This document shows positions 2,515 through 60,423 of a stretch of DNA of 64,000 nucleotides, piece by piece. This DNA is from Ecdyonurus torrentis. Lineage: Eukaryota; Arthropoda; Insecta; Ephemeroptera; Heptageniidae. Every line of letters begins with the position of its first letter. The first letter of the stretch is position 1. Both the position numbers and the translations under genes were made by a program. The notes under the pieces were generated by a model. That model was not told where the DNA came from. It ran no database searches and saw only the letters and a program-made list of their open reading frames with translations. The stretch is from positions 12,645,700-12,709,699 of the forward strand of contig OX439131.1 of NCBI GenBank assembly GCA_949318235.1, written 5' to 3'.

Positions 2515-16339
<13,825 letters not shown>

Positions 16340-19711: not shown

Positions 19712-22700
19712 ATGGAATCCCGAATGTTTGAAGCTGTGAAGAAAGGAGAAGTTGACAAGTTACGATGCTTACTGGAATGTGGTGGACAGATACTATGTAC
19801 TGATCAAAATTCATCAAATTTACTTCATGTAGCTGTTCATAGTAATCAGGTGAAATGTGCTAAGCTTTTGATGGAAAAAGCTCCAAAGTTGGCACTGGAG
19901 AAAAACTCCTGGGGACGTACACCCCTGATTAGCGCATGCATTCCTATTGTAAATTTGGAAATGATCAAAGTTCTCATACAGAAAAAAGAAACTTTGGAAA
20001 TTTCAGATGATGATGGTCTCCATGTGCCTCTTCATTTAGGTAAAAAAAAAAAAAAAAAAAAAAAAAGAGTTCATTTCCATACTTAATTTTTAATGCTTTA
20101 ATTTATATATTGGTCAAAATGAAACAATACGTACAGTATTAATTAATTTATCTAAACAAAAAAAAAAAAAAGATTTTTGTTTTTGCAATTAAAAAAATAT
20201 TAGAGGTAGGGAGCAAACAATTAAGTTAATTCACTTTAAACTATAACGTAAGATAAAGTCCTCCTCGAGTTCAGTTACAGTACATGTTTTATTACTGCTC
20301 ATTCTTTTCATACTTTGGTCAATCAAGCATTCTTTGTTAAAGTATAATGCAAAACAAGTTGTTTAATTTGTATGTTCCAGTTGCCTCGGATGACGAAGGG
20401 TATGAAGCTACAAAGCTACTTTTGGAAAATGGAGCCACAATCAATGCACTTGATCGCAAAAGAATGTCTGTAATAAACCTGGCAATTAGAAATGGCAATA
20501 AAGCTATTATAGAGTTACTATTACAACATAATGCAGTACTTACAGACAAAGATTTTATGGATGTTGATGTCCGACATTTTTGGTCTATTCTTACACTACT
20601 GCTTAAAGTCAAACCAACTTGTGTTAATGCCAAGAATTTTAATGGTTACTCTTTGTTAATGCAAATTTCCAAGTTTGGAGAAGCTAATCAAGTGAAAGAA
20701 TTACTACGACTGGGAGCAGATATCAGTGCAAAATCTGATTCAGGGGTAACTGCTTTAATGGAAGCAGTTAAGTCAGGAGACTCTGAAGTGGTTAAAGTTC
20801 TTCTTGAAGCTGGTGCAGATCCACTAGCTCAAGATGTCAAAGGAAGAACAATTTTATCTTTGGCTTGCAAATGTGAATATCATGCAGAAGACATGCTCAA
20901 GTTAGTGCTGAATATTGAAGCCTTCAAAAATCCATCATTTAGATTCCAGTCACCTGAAGTTCATCCTCAATCAATAGTTCTACGTAAAAGACGCTCACCA
21001 GTATTATTGAAATTAATTGTAAATTCATACTTAAAAAATCCAACTCTAATAATTAATGAAGAATTTATGAATATTAATTTATTTAAAATATTTGACAGTC
21101 ATAATATGTCATTAGGACCAATAAGTTATTTATTACATAATCCTGAATGTTCTTTATTAACTTCAGATAAAATTACATTCCAACTTCTGAAATTATTAGT
21201 TGAAAATGATTATCCCGTAAATACTGGCCAAAGTTCTGTACCACCCTTGACGATATTATTCAGTTGGGATGTCAATGAAATTGAAGATATGAATGATTTT
21301 ATGAAGATAGCTGATTATCTTATAGACAAAGGAAAGGCAAATGTAAATGATATGTCATTAAATATCGTTGCAACAAAAGAAGAGTGGCCTGTTGTTGAAA
21401 ACTTGCGTCAAGAAACAAAATTACCTGATGCTCTTCTCATGGCATTTCTCTCTCGTAACCTGTCTGCAATTGAACTGATGCTACCTCATTGGTCTGCGCC
21501 TCCTCTTGCACTCCTTCTTCTAGATACAGAAATACAATCCTATGAGGTTGATGCATTGTATGATACTCTGGCTGCCTATGATGTGCCTGTAGGGACACAA
21601 CTTTGCAAAAGACTATCAGTTTTCCTGGAAAGGAAGTGTCATTCCTGCAGCGATGGTGGAGGGCATAAAGAACATTCCTGCTTCAGCAAGGTGTATCAAA
21701 AAACAATAAGTAAGTATAAGAAATTTATTGAAAAGTCTACTATGCGATATGTATAATAATAAAAAGATTTGATAGTAAAACACATAGATAAAGAAAATTT
21801 GTGGAATGGGAGATAGTATGGTCTTAAACTATTCCCCAATTTTTCGTAATCTATCTGTGTGCTTTACTAGCAAATCGTTTTATTATCTTATAAGAAATAA
21901 ATTTGAAAGAAAAGGACAGGAGAAACCAGCAAGGGCCTTACCATAGTGAAGAAAGTCCCATAGTTTGGTGAAAATCTTGCTAGCAAAGATATAAAAAACT
22001 AACACATTGGAAATATTTTGGCAATAAACTCCAATTGAGATGGAGTGTGTTATGTCTTCATCAGTCCTTACCCTTACAATAAATCATTCATAATTTCTCT
22101 CCGAGTCTGCAAGGACTGATAAAGGCATAACACACCCCATCTATCTTGGAGTTTATTGCAGATATATTTCCAATGTATTAGTTTTTTATATCTGTGCTAG
22201 CAAAAATTTTCAACAAACTATGGGACTCTCTTCACTATAGTAAGGCCTTTGCTGGTTTCTCCTATCCCTTACTTTCAAATTTATAATACCTAACCGCAAT
22301 GATTTATTTTTCTTAATATATCTTATGCGTATTAGGAAAAAACCATCGCGGTTAGTATTAATAAGTTTAAAAAAAAAAAAAATTTTTTAGAAAATAGTTG
22401 GTAGAGATTAGAGCACGTTGAATTGAAAATTAATAAAACGCGAAAATTCTCTAATTTAAATAGTAAATTGGGACTAGGGATCAAATATTCTAGCTTTAGC
22501 TAGTTAAAAAGTAGACGTTAAAGGGATGGAGGTATAGTGTCAAAATAAAATACGATGTGCCTAGCATCTCACGTCCTCACACTACGTCAAAGACACAACA
22601 TTATAAAACAGCATCAGACTTACTCTTTGCCTTAGACCGGTTTCGTCCTTTACCTAGGACTCATCAGTAAGGCTCGGCAGAGAGCTCTGTACAGCTAGAG

Positions 22701-25658
22701 ATGGCTCACACCACATCTGCTAACTGACTGAGCTGAGGAAGCAAGTGGCAGTCGCGTTTATATACGCGATGCCCCCGCAGCTGCACGCGCTGATTGGTTA
22801 AAATCGCGCGCACAAACTCGGCTTGCTGTTTAAAACCTCTCATCCTCACATTGTAATATAAAATCGTGTCTAAGAGGGGTGTATAAGACAGGCAGCCAGC
22901 AAGCAATAGTGTCCTCCCTCACTTCCCAGAGTTCCCCAACTCTAGAAAGATCGCGAGAACACTACGCCTACCGACTGCACAGTATCGTGATTCACGTTAG
23001 TTACATCGCTTTATATGTTGACACTGGGGTAGGAAAAGCAAAAAGGAGATAGAGTAGGAGAGATAGAATAAATATTATGCGCTTTGGCATATATAGTTTA
23101 ATTAATTTAGTACGTGCTCTTATTGACGTTGGCAAGTAAAAGGGCCGAATAAAATAAAAATGAAAGAATATTATTTACAAAAGCTTAAAATTAAAACAAA
23201 AAGATCGACTTGGCGATAATATGCGTATTAGGAAAAAACCATCGCGGTTAGTATTAATAAGTTTAAAAAAAAAAAAAATTTTTTAGAAAATAGTTGGTAG
23301 AGATTAGAGCACGTTGAATTGAAAATTAATAAAACGCGAAAATTCTCTAATTTAAATAGTAAATTGGGACTAGGGATCAAATATTCTAGCTTTAGCTAGT
23401 TAAAAAGTAGACGTTAAAGGGATGGAGGTATAGTGTCAAAATAAAATACGATGTGCCTAGCATCTCACGTCCTCACACTACGTCAAAGACACAACATTAT
23501 AAAACAGCATCAGACTTACTCTTTGCCTTAGACCGGTTTCGTCCTTTACCTAGGACTCATCAGTAAGGCTCGGCAGAGAGCTCTGTACAGCTAGAGATGG
23601 CTCACACCACATCTGCTAACTGACTGAGCTGAGGAAGAAAGTGGCAGTCGCGTTTATATACGCGATGCCCCCGCAGCTGCACGCGCTGATTGGTTAAAAT
23701 CGCGCGCACAAACTCGGCTTGCTGTTTAAAACCTCTCATCCTCACATTGTAATATAAAATCGTGTCTAAGAGGGGTGTAAGACAGGCAGCCAGCAAGCAA
23801 TAGTGTCCTCCCTCACTTCCCAGAGTTCCCCAACTCTAGAAAGATCGCGAGAACACTACGCCTACCGACTGCACAGTATCGTGATTCACGTTAGTTACAT
23901 CGCTTTATATGTTGACACTGGGGTAGGAAAAGCAAAAAGGAGATAGAGTAGGAGAGATAGAATAAATATTATGCGCTTTGGCATATATAGTTTAATTAAT
24001 TTAGTACGTGCTCTTATTAACGTTGGCAAGTAAAAGGGCCGAATAAAATAAAAATGAAAGAATATTATTTACAAAAGCTTAAAATTAAAACAAAAAGATC
24101 GACTTGGCGATAATATGCGTATTAGGAAAAAACCATCGCGGTTAGTATTAATAAGTTCAACGTGCTCTAATCTCTACCAACTATTTTCTAAAAATTTTTT
24201 TTTTTTTTTTTTTTTTTAAACTTATTAATACTAACCGCGATGGTTTTTTCCTAATACGCATATTATCGCCAAGTCGATCTTTTTGTTTTAATTTTAAGCT
24301 TTTGTAAATAATATTCTTTCATTTTTATTTTATTCGGCCCTTTTACTTGCCAACGTCATAATAAGAGCACGTACTAAATTAATTAAACTATATATGCCAA
24401 AGCGCATAATATTTATTCTATCTCTCCTACTCTATCTCCTTTTTGCTTTTCCTACCCCAGTGTCAACATATAAAGCGATGTAACTAACGTGAATCACGAT
24501 ACTGTGCAGTCGGTAGGCGTAGTGTTCTCGCGATCTTTCTAGAGTTGGGGAACTCTGGGAAGTGAGGGAGGACACTATTGCTTGCTGGCTGCCTGTCTTA
24601 CACCCCTCTTAGACACGATTTTATATTACAATGTGAGGATGAGAGGTTTTAAACAGCAAGCCGAGTTTGTGCGCGCGATTTTAACCAATCAGCGCGTGCA
24701 GCTGCGGGGGCATCGCGTATATAAACGCGACTGCCACTTGCTTCCTCAGCTCAGTCAGTTAGCAGATGTGGTGTGAGCCATCTCTAGCTGTACAGAGCTC
24801 TCTGCCGAGCCTTACTGATGAGTCCTAGGTAAAGGACGAAACCGGTCTAAGGCAAATAGAGATTAGTTTTACGAGCTGCTATATATAGTTCATACCCGTG
24901 CATACGATGCACTATGTGTCATATTTCGGCCTGGGTTTGAATATTTTTCTCTCTCTTTTGCCGGGTCCCTGAACTAACAAAGCACATTATCTCCCATTCC
25001 CCAAAAATCTTTTACCTCTCTTTTTTATGTGTTTCTATCTATCTTTTAATTATCAACCTATCGCAAAGTCGATTTTTTTTCCTAATTATATAATTATAAG
25101 AAATAAATGTAATTTTTGCTTGTGACAAAATTTGACATACATATACAGAGCAGTTGAATTTAAATAAACAGAACAATTACAATATTTACTATACATACTT
25201 ATATAGACTATAGATACTGTACTTGATTTTGTTTAGTAATAATAATCATATCTTTTATATAAAAAATGGAAATTATTTTCAGGTTTTGTACCAAAATGCA
25301 ATGAAATTTGTAATGCTGCACAGTCAATATTCTCTAGCAGCATGATTAAGTACAAGTTAAGAATTATATTTATCTATAATGACAAGGAAATTTTATTTAT
25401 AAACATATTGATATTTACCCAATTATTTGTGTTTTAGGTCAGCCAAGCAGTCTGCGAGTGCTTGCAAAGTATTGCGTCCGTCAATTGTACTCCAGTGTTA
25501 GTCAGAACTTCATGGAACAGCTAAGGAAGGTTTGCCCTCCTGGTTTAACAAGTTTTCTGCTAATGCAGAAGGACACATGCATGCCAGCAGATGAGGGGGA
25601 TACAGATTCAGCCACAAATACTCCAACAAAACTAGCTGGCAAGAGGCGCAAGATGTAA
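19712..25658 (+). CDS. Ankyrin-repeat and SOCS-box protein, 625 aa, 3 coding exons
   Basis: Coding exons are 19712-20039, 20381-21709 and 25438-25658, total 1878 nt, with consistent phases (1, then 1). Residues from about 3 to 290 form ankyrin-type helical repeats with motifs such as LLHVAVHSNQ, TKLLLENGATINALD, VKELLRLGADISAKS and VKVLLEAGADPLAQD. A region with a Cys/His cluster (KCHSCSDGGGHKEHSC) follows near residue 535. The last exon encodes a SOCS-box-like segment starting PSSLRVLAKYCVRQLY and ending CPPGLTSFLL, then a basic tail ending KRRKM. By family knowledge, SOCS boxes bind elongin B/C and Cullin-5, so the protein is likely a substrate receptor of a ubiquitin ligase. Its substrate is unknown. 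Which ASB subfamily it belongs to cannot be decided here. The final intron carries the ribozyme-bearing insertion. AATAAA lies at 26575-26580. Confidence 0.85.
21755..21887. mobile_element. Small hairpin element in the ankyrin/SOCS-box intron
   Basis: The left arm (AAAAAGATTTGATAGTAAAA, then CACATAGATA) is inverted-complementary to the right arm (TATCTGTGTGCTTTACTAGC, then AAATCGTTTT). It sits directly left of the 15-bp duplication that bounds the large composite insertion. Confidence 0.6.
21888..21902. repeat. Left target-site duplication of the composite insertion
   Basis: TTATAAGAAATAAAT occurs here and again, perfectly, at 25094-25108. The pair brackets the 3.2 kb composite insertion. 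A 15-bp exact match placed exactly at both edges is unlikely by chance, although the sequence is AT-rich. Confidence 0.75.
21903..22316. mobile_element. Snap-back element, part of the composite insertion
   Basis: Long imperfect inverted arms. The left arm holds AACCAGCAAGGGCCTTACC and the right arm its complement around GTAAGGCCTTTGCTGGTT. The tail after the right arm reads CTAACCGCAATGATTTATTT, a decayed version of the shared end motif. Relatives lie at 28279-28534, 43292-43708 and probably 48224-48912. Confidence 0.75.
22325..23220 (-). mobile_element. Tandem ribozyme unit 1 (896 bp)
   Basis: Starts ATGCGTATTAGGAAAAAACC and is followed head-to-tail by a near-identical unit. Judging by its promoter and ribozyme, the RNA-sense strand is minus. 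On that strand the order is promoter (CCAAT, TATATAAA, TCAGT), hammerhead motif, then a body ending in TAACCGCGATGGTTTTTTCC. A 66-residue open frame on the minus strand at 22706-22906 overlaps the promoter and is not considered a gene. Confidence 0.85.
22629..22673 (-). ncRNA. Hammerhead ribozyme motif, copy 1
   Basis: On the minus strand: stem I GCCTTA/TAAGGC (6 bp), core CTGATGA, stem II GTCC/GGAC with loop TAGGTAAA, core GAA, a 3-bp stem III ACC/GGT without a loop, and C at the cleavage position. Cleavage is predicted between 22635 and 22634. All invariant hammerhead residues are present. This is a type I layout with a minimal palindromic stem III (ACCGGT). Motifs of that design in Penelope-like elements and animal repeats are thought to act as dimers. 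Confidence 0.9.
23221..24114 (-). mobile_element. Tandem ribozyme unit 2 (894 bp)
   Basis: Same order of parts as unit 1. Visible differences include loss of TA in the GGGGTGTATAAGACAGG segment, GAAGCAAG changed to GAAGAAAG, and one G to A change in TATTGACGTTGG. It is followed by 43 bp of a third unit before the orientation flips at about 24158. Confidence 0.85.
23525..23569 (-). ncRNA. Hammerhead ribozyme motif, copy 2
   Basis: Identical over 45 nt to copy 1, with all core residues and stems intact. Predicted cleavage lies between 23531 and 23530, exactly 896 nt from the copy 1 site. Self-cleavage of a tandem transcript would therefore release a monomer of 896 nt. Confidence 0.9.
24685..24760 (+). 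promoter_or_regulatory. Internal promoter of the ribozyme element
   Basis: CCAAT at 24685-24689, TATATAAA at 24718-24725 and overlapping initiators TCAGTC and TCAGTT at 24751-24760. The segment between CCAAT and TATA is GC-rich (GCGCGTGCAGCTGCGGGGGC), unlike the rest of the intron. Arrangement and spacing fit an RNA polymerase II core promoter starting near 24748-24757, about 55-60 nt upstream of the ribozyme. The same sequence occurs on the minus strand in units 1 and 2. Confidence 0.6.
24809..24853 (+). ncRNA. Hammerhead ribozyme motif, copy 3
   Basis: Stem I GCCTTA at 24809-24814 pairs with TAAGGC at 24848-24853. Core CTGATGA is at 24815-24821, stem II GTCC at 24822-24825 with GGAC at 24834-24837, GAA at 24838-24840, stem III ACC at 24841-24843 with GGT at 24844-24846. 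The cleavage-site C is 24847, so cleavage is predicted between 24847 and 24848. All conserved positions match the hammerhead consensus. Confidence 0.92.
25094..25108. repeat. Right target-site duplication of the composite insertion
   Basis: Exact copy of the 15-bp sequence at 21888-21902, immediately right of the insertion tail. Confidence 0.75.
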
Positions 25659-27903: not shown

Positions 27904-30900
27904 AGGCCTATAGGCTATATGAGCTGAAATTAGATAATCACAAATACTTACACACAAAAGGCTTTCGTCATAGTCTGGTTTCAGATGCTGCCAGTTCTGT
28001 AACTCATTGATGCCCAAATTGTGATGCTGTTCTTGTTGATTAGCACCTTGGAATGCTCCTTGGTCCTCACTGTTAGTTTCAGGAGGTTGATAGCCATCCC
28101 CAGATCCATCACATTCACACTTAAGCATGACATCATGAGTCAAACTTACATCATCTTCTTGGAAACTAAACAAGTCCTAGGAATCATACACACATTATTA
28201 TTATTATTATTAAATTTCAGTGGCATAAATCAAAAATGGCTACACTGGCAATTTTTGTAATAAACATACACAAAAAAAAGAGGATACAATAACCAGCAAG
28301 GGCCTTACCACAGTAGAAGTTCTATGGAGAGGTCGAAGTCTCGCATGGCACAGTGTTTTGTTATAAAAAAGTTCATTTTATTTTATTTATTTATTTTATT
28401 ATTTTTTTTTTATAACAAAACACTGTGCCATGCGAGACTTTGACCTCTCCATAGAACTTCTACTGTGGTAAGGCCCTTGCTGGTTATTTTATCCTTTTCT
28501 TTAATATTGATCCTAACCGCGATGGTTTTTTCCTTAAATTGACAAAAAATAATAATAATAATAATTCTGACCTTGAGGTCTTCTTTACTCAGTTTGATGT
28601 CCAAATTAGCAGCTGAAACTCCAGGATCACGGTTGACTTTCTGGATCTGTCTCTGAAGGACTTTCTCCTCTAATGTTCCAGCAGTCACAAGTCTAAAAAC
28701 AAAACAAAAATCGGTGTTTCTTGAGAAATACAAAAGATGGAGGAGAATATAAAAAAGTTTTTACAGATTCATTATATAGCAGAACAGCTTGTAACAGAAC
28801 AAACCTGTAAGTGATGACTGGACGTTTTTGGTCTCCTCTCCAGCTCCTGCTCAATGCCTGCTCGTCATGGGCTGGGTTCCAATCCAAATCAAATAGAATT
28901 ACTCTAGATGCCCCTGTCAAGTTCAATCCTGTTCCTCCTGCTTTTGCACTCATCAGAAAAACAACTGATTGAAGAAAAAAAAACTAATTAATAGACCTTA
29001 TACTTAGAAAACAAAAGCACATACAAGACACATGTAGAGAAGGCAATACTTACAAATTCCATTGTCAGTGTTGAATTTGTTGACCATAGGAATACGCTGA
29101 GCAGGCGGTGTGGAGCCGTCCAATCTCATCAATGTGAATTTTTCACTCTCACAAAGCTTTTGCAGCAAGTCAAGAGTCTGCAAATGCAGATAAGAAATTA
29201 GTAACATATTTTATTAGAAGCTCTTTAAAATACTGCAACCCTTTCAATTTTTATACCTGAGTGTAGTATGAGATGAGGAGTACACGATCTCTGCAAGTTG
29301 TGGTGAGACGGGAATGAAGCTGTCTCAGAATTCCAAGCACCACACTTAGTTTGCTTGATGTTTCTACTTTGTTAAGTTCCTGAGGGTTCCAAGCATCAAT
29401 CTTTTTACGTAGCTCACTTCGGACAGCATTCTCCTACATATACACATTGAACGAGTGTGAAACTCTAAATAGCTGCCTTTAGATAGTTTTTCTTTTACTT
29501 TATACCTTATACAAGCTTTCCTCATCTCCACACATTCTTTGACATTTATTTGCTAGCAACTTTGGGTGTGCTCCAATCTGGCGCATGGAATGAATAGCAG
29601 GCAAAGGTTCTGAAACACTGTATTCATCATCCCATACTTTTTCTGCCAAGTAGTACAGCTCCCTCTACAAAGCAGAGAATATAATGTAATATTATTGTTC
29701 CTTCTAAAAATGCAAAGAATGTAATATAATTTTAGATTTTATTAAAGGATACAAATTTTTAATTGCACAGCATGGAGATAAATATATTTGGAAAACAAAC
29801 GAAATAAAATCTAAATAAGAATACATAGTAATATTTTACATTTTTTTTTTTTTTTATAAAAGTTTTTAAATAAATTTATATGCATTAATTATACCTGAAT
29901 ATATGAAGGATTGCACATGATAATGAGGTCTTGTTTAGGAGGTAAGTAGGCAATGATTAGTTCTCGAGTTCTCTTCAACATAAACTGACTTGTCACTTGC
30001 TGTAACTCTCTCCGGCGTTGTAGACCTAGTTCACTTTGTCCTTCAGATGTATCAGTTGGGATCACATATCTCTCCCTGAATTCTGTAAATCCAATATTAT
30101 TGAAATTCTGACAATATCTACACTACAATGATAATAAAAATTATATTACCATACCTTGTTTTGTACCTAGACATCCTGGATTTGCTAAATTAAGCAGTTC
30201 ATAAAACTCCAATAAGTTGTTTTGGATTGGAGTGCCTGTAAGCAAGATTTTGCGTTTGCAAGGTAAATTGCTTATTGCATTAGCCCGACTTGTATCAGCA
30301 TTCTTAAGAACATGGGCTTCATCACAAATCAGCATGTCCCACTCATTCAATGCTTGATCATCACTGGATTGATTGGCATATGTTTCATAAGAAACGATTG
30401 CTACGTGAGCTAGACTTGACTTTGTGTAATTTTTTAAATGTTTTTCCTGATGAAAATAATATAAAAGTTAATTACTTTTTCTTTAATAAAATAACATTTC
30501 AAGATCAATTTGAAAACTTACTTTGCTGTCAACTTTAAAAACTCTAACTCTGGATAATCCAAGCCACCTGTAAATATCCTTTTCCCAGTTGTCAACTAAT
30601 GTTTTTGGAGTCACAATCAGAACTCTGCGGAGCTCTGCACCTGGACCATACAATTTCTGTTTCAGAAGTGTCCTGCAAACAAGTCAAATATTGCCAAATT
30701 CAAAATTTCTCTTTACTATAAAAAAAATGTACTTTCTTAATCAAATCTATTTGATATACACAATTTATTTTTAAATATCATTTATTTCTTTATATAATTT
30801 TTTAAATTCCCCAGCAGTGATATAATTAAAACTGTGTATTATCAAACCTAACACTGGAGTTCTAAAATTTATTTTTCCCACAAATTAAAATATCAAAACT

Positions 30901-33773
30901 GTAAAATGAAACCCAGTTAAGTATCTTACCATATTAATGTAATGCAGGTCAAAGTCTTGCCCAGACCCATTTCATCTGCCAGTACAGCACCCCAGTACTG
31001 TCCAACTTGTGCTCCTCTCATCCCCATCACACATTCGTATAGGAACTGTACTCCTTCTTTCTGATGAGGCCTTAAAACTTTTGCAAGAAAGGGTTCTACT
31101 GCGATGCGGTTCACTGTCTTGGCATTTGGGTTGAATTCCCACTAGAAATTTGACAAAACAAATATTAGTGTTTATATGTTTAATTAATTCTTTTACTATA
31201 CATGTGTAGTTGCCATATTATTTAGCAACTAAATTACTGTTAATATTTAAAAAAAGGGGGGTTTCATTCTCAGAAGCATAAAAATTTATCATTTTGATAA
31301 TAGTTATTGTCTATTGACTAATAAAGGAACAACTGTTTTGAGGCCAACTATAAGCGATTTCGCTCATATCCACTTCTGTTTCGACGTACTGCCCGCATGC
31401 GTAGTAATTAGAAACGGAAGCAGATGTGACCGAAATGGCTTAAAGTTGGCTTCAAAACAGTTGTTCCTTTATTAACAATCATATAATAATAATAAAATGC
31501 ATTTTATCAATATAGTTAAACACAAAATCCTTTATTCAACACTGGATTCCCTCATTATATTGTGACTAGTCTTTACTGTATAACATTGCATTTTCATTAT
31601 ATTTATGCTGTGATTTATTTGTAAAATGATTTATCCCTTTGATATTATTTTCATTATAATTCTACTGGTTAAATCTAAAATATATTAGGGCAAAAACATG
31701 CCGATTACTTTCTAGTTTCTCTATAGGATGATACAAAGAATTTAATTAATTTTCAATCACATTTTTATTTGTTTCCATACAAATTACAAGATACATTATT
31801 ATTATTATTGCAATGACATTTGGCAAGCTAGAAAAAACAAACATGCATAATAATTTTAAAATTACAATATATTATAATAATAATGATAATAAGACACAAT
31901 TTACAATGTTATACTTGCTTGCCTGATGTCACAACTTACTTCATCATGCAAGTTATAATTTGATTTGGAGGTAAAGATAGCATTGAGTTTTTAAAGGAAT
32001 GGAACAGAAATTAAAAAAGGATAGAATAGAACGAGAGAAATTAGAGCACCGTGTATTGAAAATTAATGCAAAGCGAAATTCACTAATTTTGATAGTTTTA
32101 ATAGGACAGGGACTCAAAACAATTCACTAGTCGTAGCTAGGACGTATTTTTGTATGAAAAGAATTTAAAAGGATGGGTTATTCTGTGCAAAAATCAGATA
32201 TTTGGTATGTATGGTTGATTTTTGCACAGAATAACCCATCCTTTTAAATTCTTTTCATATAAAAATACGTCCTAGCTACGACTAGTGAATTGTTTTGAGT
32301 CCCTGTCCCATTAAAACTATCAAAATTAGAGAATTTCGCTTTGCATTAATTTTCAATACACGGTGCTCTAATTTCTCTCGTTCTATTCTATCCTTTTTTA
32401 ATTATCATTAACTGCGATGGTTTTTTTCACATATATAGAATGGAACAGAAAGACAATAAAAGGGAGTGAAAAACTGTGACCACAGTATAGAGATAACTGT
32501 GACATTGTTTATACCTGCACTCCCTGAACACTAAAATGCATATAGGGTATGTAAATACAACCAGATGGGACTAAAAGTTAGACTTCACTAAAAAGACTAA
32601 TTAAAAGTAGTAAATAATGAGCTCGCAATACATACTCCTTAGTAACTTGTAACGTTTACAAATATTTAATTTTAGACTTGGTTAGAATATTTTCTCTCAT
32701 ACATGAAGAAGGCATTCCTGTTAGTAACAGCTCAAGCTCTCTAAAAATTCAATAAGCATTTTTCTTTTAAATATTTTTATAAATTGACTACCGCAAAGTT
32801 GATTTCTTCCATTAATTATCTTATTACGTAGTTTTAAGTTTTTCCAACAAGAGAGTGTTGGATATAACAGTATAAAGGGACAGGAAATTGTTGACTCTTT
32901 AAATGTTGTTAAAATTGTCATGTTTGGAAATTTATATTTTAAAATAATAGGCTTTTTGCAGCACATTGCACTGATAAATAAACAAACACTAATCATCAAA
33001 AAAAATATCATCATCTTTTACCTGATGGGAAGCGCTCGGTGGATTTAATGGAAAGTCATGATATTCTACTCTATTTTTAAAATCTGGTTTGAATTTCTTA
33101 GAAACTGGTTTATCTTCTACACATTGTGGAGGTTGAGGAACAGCTACTGTTACTGTCTCCTTTGACAAGCAACTTCCTAACTGTAAAAGCAACAGATAGA
33201 AATATCAGTGAACAAAACCAAAATATTGTTTTGATTTTTTTATTCATTGCATTTATTATTATTATAATAACAACACAAATTAGATGTATAATATTTTTTA
33301 CTAAATTATACTTTTTTTTTTTTTTTTTTTTTTTTTACCTCCACATCTCGTCCACCAATTGTCAGCTGTGTGCCTTCCTCAAAAACAATTCCAGGTTTCA
33401 CTTTGGAAGCTCGCCCTATTTCCTTACCATCCTCATCCTAAAATTAGAATATTTTTTTAAAATAAGACAATGTTGTTATGACTATTATATTAGTTTATGA
33501 CCCAGATATTATCGATGCCTCCTCGTAAAAAGCGAGCATCTACACTTTCCAGTTTTGGGAAAAAAACAATTATCTACACTTTCAGTCGATGAGCATCAGC
33601 AATGTTAAGTTAATGGCTGCTAGTCGAGTTACAGTGCTGCTCGGAAAATGTAGATACTCCAGTTTTTTTTTTTTTTTTTTTTTGCAAAACTGGGAAGTGT
33701 AGATGCTCTCTTTTGATGCGGAAGCATCGTTTTGTAAATATCCATTTTATAATATTATATTATATAATTATAT

Positions 33774-34892: not shown

Positions 34893-36150
34893 ATTTTAGA
34901 CTTTGTGTCGCAACAAAATATAAAATTTACACGTACACTACACAGTTTATAACTGCGTCATTAAATTTATGATTTTTAGTGCAAGAAAAAAATGAAAAAA
35001 GTAGTAAAATAAAACCTCAAATACAACACAACCAACCTTGCCCTTTCACAAATGACACCAGCTGACTTTTCCCGCCGTTTCCCGCCAACAGTAATACCAA
35101 CATAATACGCTCTTATTAATTTTCTTCTCAAACTCTAGATACTCAAACTCAACCATAAATTAAATAAAATAAGTACGCATACAATTTATTCTCAATACAT
35201 TATTATTAAAATTGTTTGCAAACATATTACCTTGCCCTAAAAATAAACAAAATCTTACGTGTTTAAGTTGGCCTTCATGTTTGCACTTGTATTTTGAAAA
35301 ATTTGCTGCAGCAAATTGCTTCCCAGTGTTTTCACCTTCCTTCGCCCTATCTGTGTCGCGATACCACCATGCGGCTTCAATGGATACATATAGATAGGCC
35401 TATAATAAGATCAACACCTTGGGACGATATTGCTTGGACACAACTGCCGACAATTAGTAAGTCATTCTAAATTTACATTATCGCACATACCGACACGGAC
35501 ACAAATGTTACGAAGTAAAAGGCAACACTTCAATATATTTTGCCACCCGCTATTTTATCTGTATACCTTGACCTCTGTGTGGACCTGTTTTACCTTTGTT
35601 GGCTATGTTGCTACATTTAATTTTTTTCCATTTATCCAATGTGTCTGTGGTACATAGTACATATATGCCCGTTGAGTGTGACATGATCACGATACATGAT
35701 CATTATTCTATTTTTATTTTTTTAATCAATTTAAAGGATCATATATACAAACAGTATTAAGTATATTATTGCAGATAATTAAATTAAAGAACGACCTATA
35801 TAATGTATTATGGTGAAGTCCCTAGAAGAATTAGGATTAGCTGTATGGTCCTATATTCCGCTTACCTTTTTTATATAACCACCCGTGGCTGTAATAAACT
35901 TCTGATTATATAAATATATACATAGGGTATAGTTCATTCATAGTTTCTTGCTGAGAGTCTGTATAAGGACTATAAAAATAAAGGCAAAATACGCTCCATT
36001 TCTCTTTTGGATTTTAGTACAAAAAAACAATCCAATACTCGTTATTTTTTTATCTCTATGTAATTCCTTTTATTTTAAATTTACCTAAATTATAAAAGAT
36101 TTGATATCAATTACTATCACATAGACGATTTTGTACATGAATATTATCCA
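34893..36150. other. Upstream region of RAD54B
   Basis: Contains the expected promoter and 5' UTR of RAD54B, which reads leftward. A GC-richer patch with CCCGCC and CGCC repeats lies at about 35065-35090. No gene was recognised. It separates RAD54B from the 3' end of its tandem paralogue. Confidence 0.55.
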
Positions 36151-36750
36151 ATTTAGTCAGTTATACAGGACTTGGGGATCAAATGTTCTAGATCTATTTT
36201 TTGATAAAAAGACCTTATTAAAAGGATGGGGATCCGATGTTGTGTCAATAATGCACATACCTATATAGTATCTCATATTCTTAAACTACATCAAAGGCAC
36301 GACATTATTCTTGCCATATTGTGTCATCGAGCTACACCATGCAATCCATAGTCTCGTTAAGACATTGTCTTATTGACAGGCACGGACTTTCCAATAAATG
36401 GAAACTGCACACACGGGCCGGTCACTGTCTAAATATACAGCCCGGCATTCGCCATGACAACCTAGAGAAACCGTGGAAACATCTAGGCAGGCTAGTCGGT
36501 GCAATCACATCTATCATGCACCTCCCGAATGCTGTGCGTTGTCCTGGAATGCATGTAAACAAGCATCGTGAAACGTTTTGTGCTCTCGACACACTTCACG
36601 TATGCACCCAGCAGTGGCTCAAACCTGTACTAGGTGAGGAGTACAGAGTTACGAGTCAGCTGCCTTCACCGCTCTGCCATACCAGCTCAGTAACGACAGC
36701 ATCAGCCTTTCTCATGACCTTAGACCGGTTCCGTTCTTATGATATAATAA
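36150..36750 (-). mobile_element. Longer, broken relative of the ribozyme element
   Basis: The stretch GGGGATCAAATGTTCTAG and the following AAGGATGG match the ribozyme units, as do CTACATCAAAGGCACGACAT and the terminal ACCGGTCTAAGG (minus strand, 36718-36729). Compared with the units it has about 390 extra bp of GC-richer sequence (about 36320-36700). It stops at the ribozyme: the 3' half of the hammerhead survives but the CTGATGA core is gone. A 153-residue open frame on the plus strand (36321-36782) covers the extra part and resembles nothing I know. Confidence 0.6.
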
Positions 36751-42800: not shown

Positions 42801-45588
42801 TAAATATGTATATAAATATGTATAAGTACACCTTGGTGTTTAATAAATAAATAATAAAAATTAATATTATATTAATATATTAATATATAGGTACTTATGT
42901 GTACACAAGACTGCGATAATATATTTTACCATTGAAATCCAGCGCGTGTTTTTCTACAAATTTAGTGTAAGTTTTTGAATGGTAAAATATATATTATCGC
43001 AGTCCTGTGTGCATTAACTAAAAATAGAAGCAAAATTCTGGCAAAAGTAGCCTAGCCCGCCTTCATACCTGAATAAAAGCAGGCTTGCACATAATGATGA
43101 GATCCTGTTTGGGTGGTAAATAATCAATTATCAGTTCTCGAGTTCGTTTCAACATGTACTGACTAGTTAGTTCTTGCAACTCTTCCATTCGCTGTTGTCC
43201 CAATATACTTCGTCTACATGGGATCACGTATCTCTTGCCGAAATCTACTCAAAATCATATAAAAAAAAGTAGTCATTACAAGAAAGAAAAAGATATAAAT
43301 ATAGCAAGGGCCTTACCTCAGTAAGAGTTCTATATGGAGAAGACAAAGAGGTAGAGGTCTCACGTGGCACAGAGTTTTAGTTATAATATTTTTACAGCTG
43401 AGAGAGCTTTCGTCATATCTTAATGATATTATCAATCAAATAATAGATTTACTTGAGCACATCACTGAGCAGTGTGTAGTCTTACAAGACTACAAGCTGC
43501 GCTCAGTGATGTGCTAGAGTAAATTTCTTCTTTGATTGATAATATCATTAAGATATGAGAAAAGCTTTCAGCTGTAAAAACATTAAAACTAAAACTCTGT
43601 GCCACGTGAGACCTCAACCTCTCCATAGAACTCTTACTGTGGTAATACCTTTGCTAGTATTTTCTACCCTTTTCTTTAAGATTGATCTAACTGTGATGTT
43701 TTTTTCCTTGAATTGATGCCATTTCAATAAATATTAATAATAAATATAATAATAATACAATTTACCTAATTTAGTTCCTAGACAGCCTGGGTTTACTATA
43801 TTTAGTAGTTCATAAAATTCCAACAAGGTATTTTGATATGGAGTGCCTGTTAGCAATATTTTGCGAAAGCAGTTCACATTTTTTATTACTTTAGCCACAC
43901 GAGTTTCAGGGTTTTTCAAAATGTGGGCTTCATCACAAATCACCAAGTCCCACTCATTCAAGGCATACTTAGCTTGATGTACCAATGAATCATAAGAAAT
44001 TATTGTTATTTGTGTTGAAGACGTGTGACTTCGTAGGTGGTTCTCCTGTGGTAAATAACAATTTAAAGTCTGCACTTAAATCTTTTATTTATTTATTTTT
44101 TATATATTCAGTTAAAAATTAATTATATAACATTTTAATATTGCACATATATATAGCACTCACTTTTCTGTCGACTTTGAAAACTTCAACCCGTGATTCT
44201 AACCATTTATTTATATCATTTTCCCAATTGTCAACTAAAGATGTAGGAGTGACAATTAAAATGTTGCTTATTTCTGCACCTGGACCATATAGTTTCTGTT
44301 GAAGAAGAGTCCTGCAATATAAATATATAGTTAAATCATCACAGGAGTTGGGTTCAAATCTTTGGTTAATTGAGAAAGTAACACACACACACACACATAT
44401 TATAGGCTATAAAATACTGTGTACTCATAAAAAGATGTTAACGACAAAAATCTTACCACATGAGAGCAATGCATGTCAAAGTCTTTCCCAGACCCGGTTC
44501 ATCAGCTAGCATGGCACCCCAGTACTGGCCAACCTGAGGACCTCTCATCCCCATCACACATTCATATAAAAATAAAACTCCCTCCTTCTGATAAGGCCTT
44601 AAGACTTTTGCAAGGAATGACTCTACTGCAACTTTATTCATTGTCATATGATGAGGGTTGAATTTCAACTAAAAAGTAACAGCCACAGAAAAAGTAAAGA
44701 TGCATTCACGTATTCAGTCATTTATTTATTCTATATTTAAACCGGGCAGAAAAATAATTATTCAAATTTAAAGCAATATCAACTTACTTATAATACATAA
44801 ATGAAAATGTGAATGGACCTTTATTGTTATATAGGGAGCAAATTACTACACTACATTATTATATTTTTAATTCATAAATTTGAAAGCTTTTCAATGGACC
44901 ACTTGCAATGAAATGATTTTAATTGTTGCAACATGCATGTAAGTGAAAACGATTTTTCCATAACAAATGCATTAAGAATATTTCAATTTATTTTAAAAAG
45001 TTCATTCATTGCAAGTGGTCCTTTGTGGAACTTTGTTGAAAATGCAGTTATGGTAAATGTACTAGTTATCGGCAGGCTCTTTTTACGGCGAAAGCAATAA
45101 GTTTATGATATTTTAACTAGAACCAAAACCATCTTAGAATTCCATCTACTTGCCATACCACTGCTTAAAACTCTTTTATCACTAGAGGGGGCCCGAGATA
45201 AATAGGGGTGCCGATAACTGCGGCAGTGTCGGTTTGGCTGCTTTTCTCAACAATACTATAGGAATTTGAACCTTAAAGACCCTTAAGCTGCCGATAACTA
45301 GTCCTGTTACCATACAAGAAAGTACAATAATAGATGCATTCACTTTTTCTTTTTTTTTTTTTTACTTTACGCAGCAAATTATATAATTATTCACTAAAAC
45401 TATGCTACCATATTTTAAAATTCAGTTGCTGCACAAGATACAAGAAATAAATTAATATTATGTGAATGTGCCTTAATGAAAAAAAAAACATGCAATATGC
45501 AAAAACGTTCATACAAGCCAAGCACAAACACAATTATTATTACCTGATGTTCTGCACTTGGAGTTCGCAAAGGAAAATCTTGATCCAT
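36880..45588 (-). CDS. RAD54B-like tandem paralogue, 626 aa, 11 coding exons
   Basis: Exons in transcript order: 45544-45588, 44457-44668, 44164-44311, 43766-44045, 43069-43244, 41416-41754, 41158-41281, 40223-40382, 38376-38496, 37921-38103, 36880-36972. No stop or frameshift interrupts them. It aligns with RAD54B from DFPL before the ATPase to the C-terminus, so about 200 N-terminal residues, including the KKHKTWEGD domain, are missing. The first exon gives ATG at 45588 ([15 protein letters not shown]); an unseen upstream exon is possible. Motif I is DEPGLGKT (71-78) instead of DEMGLGKT. Motif II DEAH is at 173-176. Motif VI is RGNQ (484-487). Exon 41416-41754 equals two exons of RAD54B fused, so one intron was gained or lost after duplication. 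The intact frame suggests a functional, diverged helicase. Confidence 0.85.
37042..37598. mobile_element. Large foldback element, 557 bp
   Basis: Arms of roughly 240 bp. The ends are AATAGACAACTTGCATGCC and GGCATGCAAGTTGTCTATT. Inner parts such as GACGGTGGCCATTACGCCG match their complement CGGCGTAATGGCCACCGTC. A CG-richer core with AACGGCCGAA and TTAGCCGTTG lies near the centre. It sits in the last intron of the RAD54B paralogue. Confidence 0.85.
37695..37800. mobile_element. Near-perfect short hairpin
   Basis: Two arms of about 46-48 bp, differing only at one base near the outer end and in the length of an A run. The outer part reads CGATGTTGGGATGCAGAAAT and the loop is GTTTTTA. Probably a small MITE. 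Transcribed, it would make a long perfect hairpin RNA. Confidence 0.75.
38660..39407. repeat. 748-bp nearly perfect palindrome
   Basis: The centre lies between 39033 and 39034 in AAGGAATTCCTT, with no spacer. Arms of 374 bp align without net indels out to AAGTACCTGGTTCAG and CTGAACCAGGTACTT. Even the ten-A run, the TATATA stretch and the (TTTA)n run match their partners. I saw one mismatch (CCTGTGCC against CCTATGCC). It lies in an intron of the RAD54B paralogue. Confidence 0.9.
39430..39740 (+). repeat. Dispersed repeat family, copy 1
   Basis: Shares AATCTGAAGTTTTGCACAAT, CATGTTAATTTCAAT, GATGGTCA and a final TTTTTATCA segment with copies at 46590-46850 (same strand) and 49780-50065 (opposite strand). 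Its outer ends TAAGTAGGGGACC and GGTACCCTACTCCCTTA are roughly inverted. Superfamily unknown. Confidence 0.6.
42014..42866 (+). mobile_element. 5'-truncated LINE retrotransposon, 3' end only
   Basis: The upstream frame ([18 protein letters not shown], then FNYLGV) is the end of a LINE reverse transcriptase domain. The downstream frame 42149-42793 continues it with [12 protein letters not shown] and a terminal Cys/His cluster (CVCVLC ... CTRYHLLHC). The 3' end is (TAAA)n-rich. TTATATTAAT at 42004-42013 recurs at 42867-42876, a plausible target duplication. It lies antisense in an intron of the RAD54B paralogue and is too short to be autonomous. The domain order fits a Jockey- or CR1-like group, but this is not certain. 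Confidence 0.8.
42903..43009. mobile_element. MITE-like hairpin
   Basis: Inverted ends CACAAGACTGCGATAATAT and ATATTATCGCAGTCCTGTG, continuing as ATTTTACCATT and AATGGTAAAAT. About 107 bp with a short unique centre. Confidence 0.75.
43292..43708. mobile_element. Snap-back element in the RAD54B paralogue
   Basis: Outer arms AGCAAGGGCCTTACCTCAG and its complement near TGTGGTAATACCTTTGCT; inner arms TTAATGATATTATCAATCAA and complement; centre AGTCTTACAAGACT. The tail CTAACTGTGATGTTTTTTTC is a variant of the common end motif. It is a relative of the elements at 21903 and 28279 with a longer stem. Confidence 0.8.
44895..45022. mobile_element. MITE-like element, copy 2 of a two-copy family
   Basis: Same terminal repeats (GGACCACTTGCAATGAA and ATTGCAAGTGGTCC) and interior (GTGAAAACGATTTTTCCATA) as the element at 18564-18693. 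Confidence 0.8.
45061..45302. mobile_element. MITE-like element with ACTAGTTATCGGCAG ends
   Basis: Terminal inverted repeats ACTAGTTATCGGCAG and CTGCCGATAACTAGT enclose about 210 bp of unique sequence. A second inner occurrence of GCCGATAACTGCGGCAG lies at about 45210. Confidence 0.7.

Positions 45589-56581: not shown

Positions 56582-60423
<3,842 letters not shown>

Follow-up and report, generated by a model that had tools for sequence, protein, structure and literature searches.

The window analysed here, a 64,000-nt stretch of the Ecdyonurus torrentis genome, contained an ankyrin-repeat ORF (20347-21756), a zinc-finger ORF (56582-58486) that presumably encodes hunchback, and an insertion made of repeated units with hammerhead motifs (Table 1). 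The first-pass annotation had placed this insertion inside a gene intron, a location that was not confirmed, the ankyrin-repeat ORF being present but the exon-like stretch at 25440-25655 having no Pfam match over the cut-off. The repeat arrangement it described was recovered, that is, a tandem pair 896 nt apart and an inverted third copy, with 300-nt repeat pieces matching at 100% and 99% and inverted arms of 501 nt at 100%. Private changes were present in the window copy, and its right arm ended at unit position 9. As for the polymerase II promoter of its own that had been attributed to the unit, it amounts to a TATA match at unit position 767, a candidate element.

Table 1. Features of the hammerhead-element insertion and of the adjoining sequence (window coordinates; unit positions refer to the complete unit at 22635..23530)
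Feature	Position	Strand	Remark
Whole hammerhead-element insertion	22324..24856	both strands	Two arms fused at 5' ends
Minus-strand arm	22324-24160	-	More than two laps
Plus-strand arm	24161-24856	+	Less than one lap
Head-to-head junction of the arms	24160..24161		Between the 5' ends of the arms
Complete unit, cleavage site to cleavage site	22635..23530	-	896 nt; reference for unit coordinates
Hammerhead copy 1	22629..22673	-	RF00163, 30.0 bits; predicted cut between 22635 and 22634
Hammerhead copy 2	23525..23569	-	RF00163, 30.0 bits; predicted cut between 23531 and 23530
Hammerhead copy 3	24809..24853	+	RF00163, 30.0 bits; predicted cut between 24847 and 24848
Left outer end with tail (end B, unit 273-311)	22324..22362	-	End point recurs in many other insertions
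Internal copy of module shared with Penelope-like element (unit 273-333)	23198..23258	-	81% over 63 nt with L048 3506-3567, E 4e-8; coordinates converted from unit positions
Shared module, plus-strand arm	24224..24284	+	Coordinates converted from unit positions
TATATAAA, possible promoter element (unit 767-774)	22757..22764	-	Sequence only
TATATAAA, possible promoter element, copy 2	23653..23660	-	Sequence only
TATATAAA, possible promoter element, copy 3	24718..24725	+	Sequence only
Probable old end of second hammerhead family, window element inside it	24900..25090		By eye, against L067
Older neighbouring insertion, inverted arms	21897..22323		Inverted repeats; adjoins the element; tail-like CTAACCGCAATG at 22290

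The three 45-nt hammerheads proved identical to one another and contained all the conserved core residues named before. Each segment matched the full Rfam model RF00163 (Hammerhead_1, model positions 1-45; E 9.5e-5 with 2.6 kb searched), but the score fell below the curated cut-off of 34 bits, and none was listed in an Rfam scan of the whole window at the gathering threshold. A pattern to which stem III had to contribute three bases found no match, as only two are left by the stem III present here. Weak Rfam matches to MIR390, MIR167, and rli24 appear to be due to chance, the DNA being palindromic or AT-rich. Stem III consisted of the loopless palindrome ACCGGU (ACC/GGU) and therefore cannot close within one copy. 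The preferred predicted fold of a single 45-nt copy was a non-hammerhead structure (-14.7), and the minimum-energy structure of two cofolded copies was a double hammerhead (-31.9 kcal/mol) with the 6-bp palindrome as stem III, which agrees with the dimeric action suggested by the first reading. These hammerheads are candidate self-cleaving ribozymes. In 30 other insertions of the family (see below), the 45-mer, located by a flank anchor, was identical at 68 of 69 hammerhead junctions and had a single change in the remaining one; since the copies are young, such identity alone is no proof of selection.

Dispersed units and the anatomy of their insertions

In the 503 Mb of genome searched, the best 40 of 1331 first-look candidates for a 502-nt query all matched at 99-100%, and a query downstream of the hammerhead gave 42 listed matches (40 of 1438 candidates scored) with identities of 95-100% over most of the query, except for one short piece. 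Both lists comprise best-scoring places only and thus favour young copies. Seventeen insertions from the first list, 13 from the second, and that of the window, 31 in all, were compared. The expected further genomic copies were thereby found, as a high-copy dispersed unit of ~890 nt; the length of 896 nt holds for the window copy but not for the family, in which 25 of 34 complete units were 886-890 nt long (range 886-920 nt; 39% G+C). The longest ORFs in the window copy were of 64-66 aa. An ORF scan of the 17 first-set loci found none of 110 aa or longer within their unit arrays, nor the ORF for reverse transcriptase and GIY-YIG nuclease that an autonomous Penelope-like element (PLE) has within the element. 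Judged by these sequences, the ~890-nt unit is a retroelement that is non-coding and young and occurs dispersed in high copy number, and the earlier assignment to a non-autonomous retroelement of retrozyme or Penelope type is supported by the dispersed tandem non-coding units together with the insertion anatomy.

Twenty insertions were complete and head-to-head (L009, L010, L011, L013-L017, L019, L020, L023, L025, L052, L054, L056, L057, L060-L062, and the window), seven ran in one direction (L012, L018, L021, L022, L024, L051, and L053), and four were cut by the fetched stretch (L055, L058, L059, and L063). The complete insertions consisted of two tandem arms, each from a small part of a unit to about five laps long, with the 3' ends outward and the 5' ends meeting at junctions where microhomology was slight or absent. 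A tail of ~35 nt, CTAACCGCGATGGTTTTTTCC, was present at exactly one outer end, so that the Penelope-type arrangement of head-to-head arms, tailed on one outer side, was seen in 20 of 20. The tailed end lay near unit 311 (end B) in all except L013, where it was ~20 nt further, and in 17 of the 20 end B was accompanied by an untailed end at unit ~249-279, i.e. at site A or just before (the untailed end of L061 was taken from the BLAST coordinate). Atypical ends were those of L009 (untailed, unit 134), L013 (the longer tailed end), and the window (untailed, unit 9). There are hence two preferred 3' start points, ~35 nt apart, one per arm.

Strings of at least 12 nt were repeated in both flanks of 17 of the 20 complete insertions, the exceptions being L010, L061, and the window. 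These strings lay in simple repeats in L009, L017, and L060 and in low-complexity sequence in L020 and L054, and some included element bases; as sequences, they look like short target-site duplications. Among 24 central junctions, 11 had an overlap of 1-4 nt, four were blunt, eight had 1-58 nt left unaligned by BLAST (partly element sequence in L010, L013, and L056), and one, in L014, had a foreign piece of 668 nt. This piece (L014 2740-3407, between the two arms) appeared LINE-like by eye. At nine of the 24 junctions (L009, L010, L016, L020, L055, L056, L057, L061, and L063), both arms stopped within ~10 nt of one unit position, and in L010 and L056 the stop of one arm coincided with the predicted cleavage site, that of the other lying 8 nt upstream of it. 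Counted by hand in the first set, 22 of the 31 arms had their 5' end within unit 1-350, a figure on which no weight is placed. Many arms continued across intact hammerhead junctions, indicating that the copied RNA was either uncut or re-joined.

Substitutions were counted between 34 complete units from 18 insertions. The 23 within-insertion pairs showed 0 substitutions, the mean between insertions being 3.63, and in 5000 shuffles of the labels no value this low occurred, with or without the unit of the window. This comparison supersedes a smaller one (21 units from 12 loci, 0 substitutions in 14 pairs). Poly-T length differed within arrays. The lack of substitutions within insertions indicates that both arms copy one sequence, and such a record of one template would be fitted equally by an RNA circle and by a multimer transcribed from a homogeneous array.

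The resident Penelope-like element and the shared module

The only PLE ORF seen in the scan of the first-set loci was one of 124 aa in the flank of L014, belonging to a separate insertion and presumably, as read by eye, encoding a GIY-YIG nuclease; in a comparison with Pfam, this nuclease end reached only E 0.12, with a family of GIY-YIG-type restriction enzymes. In the genome the nuclease end had at least 150 matches (the best 150 of 634 candidates), all but one at 100%. A full ORF of 1003 aa was found in L048; it matched RVT_1 at E 1.2e-5, short of the Pfam cut-off, and contained the motifs LPKIHKPG, DVTSLYTNI, MGTRMAPSYAN, and FIDDIF, which we take to be of Penelope type. A Pfam GIY-YIG genome scan did not pick up this resident PLE; one of its two matches (L026 and L027), L027, was rejected as another ORF and not this PLE. 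That locus (G000:C10:48232488-48235694) holds a 1496-aa open frame in which, besides the GIY-YIG match, an OTU-like stretch was noted by eye. Neither the PLE protein nor its nuclease end had a relevant match among PDB sequences.

The PLE unit was 3638 nt long, and, among the PLE loci read, in all 11 distinct insertions with both outer ends (L014, L017, L018, L029, L031, L032, L039, L046, L048, L049, and L050) the tail was at exactly one end. The similarity between unit 273-333 and the PLE defines a shared module of ~63 nt that spans the tail and ~25 nt beyond (Table 1). With the module masked, unit and PLE had no match better than E 0.4, and local alignment of the surrounding 165 nt had a score of 105, whereas 1000 simple shuffles reached no more than 86, by which weak similarity may extend beyond the module. 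The host Penelope reverse transcriptase with matching repeats that the first-pass annotation had proposed to look for was thus found in part, as a PLE in the genome with the tail module and the same insertion anatomy but without matching long repeats. No hammerhead was listed by Rfam in the PLE. A degenerate hammerhead-like segment in L048 (~3346-3400, ~110-150 nt before the tail), with two short stems, GAA, and a palindromic AGCU but with the core changed and one nt longer, could, as judged by eye, be no more than a relic. Folding did not favour a tail hairpin.

These data bear on whether the unit might be the pLTR of another, autonomous PLE, the loci being its solo or tandem pLTR arrays. Minimal hammerheads have been reported in PLE pLTRs, and the unit has a PLE tail with perhaps some similarity to the resident PLE past the module, yet that PLE has only the module in common with the unit, and an ORF of 110 aa or more is lacking from the unit arrays of the first-set loci. 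This explanation is considered unlikely.

Other hammerhead and tailed insertions

In a genome scan with RF00163, 74 of 32802 candidates were scored and 32 matches listed, 27 of them over the cut-off. The ACCGGU-hammerhead family was absent from the listed matches, its score being too low for the E-value limit. The five loci read (L064-L068) represented a second dispersed hammerhead family above the Rfam cut-off, the stem III of which, ACAGCUGU, is a loopless 8-nt palindrome; 20 listed places with the same 39.2-bit score are probably members of the L067/L068 family. L067 (sense 1151-2367) had inverted outer ends, like the window element.

Other insertions were observed in the window and elsewhere. 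An inverted-arm insertion at 28274-28535 had the PLE tail on its right side only, and an older one at 43283-43710, related to the terminal region of the PLE, had a tail-like end on one side. An old head-to-head relative of the unit (~67%) at 31955-32445 carried a tail-like AACTGCGATGGTTTTTTT on one side, and a diverged unit piece (~66%) was located at 36139-36308. In L045, 753-933 was a 79% relative of unit 696-870 (TATA region to hammerhead start) in which CTGATGA was kept and the rest was not. L041 and L042 contained PLE copies flanked by unit relatives of 68-75%; these flanks, together with the neighbours in the window, suggest insertion near older tails.

Mobilisation and comparison with known elements

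The element is probably a retrozyme moved by the protein of the PLE in the same genome, a reading drawn from the one-sided tail, the shared module, the same anatomy in the PLE, and the use of one template per insertion. In the mechanism proposed, the unit would be transcribed from the TATA region, and paired hammerheads would be able to cut the multimers. The PLE protein would bind the module, nick both target strands, and prime one strand at each start point, with the same RNA being copied. The template RNA, either an uncut multimer or a re-joined circle, would be copied for a fraction of a lap to several laps, and the two cDNAs would then be end-joined. The nine junctions with near-equal arm stops would also fit self-priming at palindromes.

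The identical units in both arms, the differing lap numbers, and the scattered 5' ends allow a more specific but tentative reading, that a ribozyme-made RNA circle is copied lap after lap by the Penelope protein (rolling-circle target-primed reverse transcription), the two nicked target strands using different start points on one and the same circle for priming. A linear multimeric RNA would be the alternative template. Since intact junctions occur in the copied RNAs, cleavage was either unused or followed by ligation. Since the presumed helper PLE has no detectable hammerhead, the ribozyme may serve the unit and not the insertion step, and the sequences suggest that it does so perhaps through monomers, circles, or stable RNA.

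LINEs or PLEs have been named in reviews, among them one of 2024 (PMC11722881), as possible helpers of metazoan retrozymes, and a LINE-type reverse transcriptase could in principle have moved the unit, with the head-to-head arms arising by twin priming. This is improbable in view of the fixed one-sided tail, the module common to the resident PLE, and the same anatomy there, and no poly-A 3' end was found among the insertion ends inspected. Least credible of all is a tandem satellite or segmental duplication with a non-functional relic hammerhead, for although copies are tandem and inverted, arms often run through intact junctions, and ribozyme activity is a prediction, a satellite or recombination origin is disfavoured by the dispersal of the insertions, by their fixed ends, and by the strings repeated in their flanks, as well as by the nearly invariant hammerhead, young as the copies are.

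The proposed mobilisation by the PLE protein can be compared with what has been described for PLEs with pLTRs and a tail (PMC3846280, PMC11167929). The likeness to these comprises the minimal hammerhead, head-to-head arms, a one-sided tail of ~31-40 bp, and short target-site duplications; the difference is that the unit here has no ORF and only the tail module in common with the resident PLE. As reported in PMC11167929, both target strands are cut and extended by a PLE protein in purified form, which starts at two neighbouring internal sites on the RNA; the genomic tail corresponds to the sequence between these sites. Insertion was unchanged with hammerhead mutants in that report. The start site was there described as no different between strands, which does not match the use of one start point per arm observed here. 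According to PMC3846280, copies are mostly head-to-head, only one of the two inverted pLTRs has the tail, and pLTRs can be mobilised in trans; the replication route was left open, with self-priming favoured. Both papers describe the PLE integration route as unresolved. The minimal hammerheads of PLEs are reported to lack helix III and possibly to act as dimers, and in the small dimeric ones (Lunse 2017; Cervera 2014) stem III is reportedly too short for one copy, as it is here, which leads one to expect a dimer.

Plant LTR retrozymes (PMC4918200) are likewise non-autonomous, with a hammerhead in the repeats and a similar size (circRNA of 600-800 nt), but are described with a type III hammerhead and LTR features in place of the type I hammerhead and Penelope features found here. 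Closer are the metazoan non-LTR retrozymes (Cervera and de la Pena 2020, PMC7229834), which are reported to be 170-400 nt long, to have canonical type I hammerheads, and to form circular RNA. Like these, the present units appear from their sequences to be non-autonomous, tandem, and dispersed, with a type I hammerhead, low G+C, and no LTR; they differ in their length of ~890 nt, outside the 170-400-nt range, and in having a minimal hammerhead with a loopless stem III instead of a canonical one.

Metazoan retrozymes are described in the literature as depending on another element for their movement, and PLEs have been called a strong candidate helper (PMC7229834), the argument given in the papers being type I hammerheads, tandem occurrence, and co-existence in the same genomes. 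A link between retrozymes and PLEs had until now been mostly a proposal, for which the present sequences give evidence, and a limited literature search by titles and the starts of abstracts found no report of a retrozyme sharing a PLE start module. The helper of the metazoan retrozymes was only a proposal; here the start module and the insertion scars point to a PLE. In one genome, a retrozyme-like family and a PLE, both young, have only the start-point stretch in common and leave the same scars, by which the helper question for retrozymes becomes directly testable. The many young insertions, moreover, would provide a readable record of PLE integration, with one start point per strand, one template, and end-joined cDNAs. 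The relation of the unit to the PLE may be likened to that of a SINE to its LINE.
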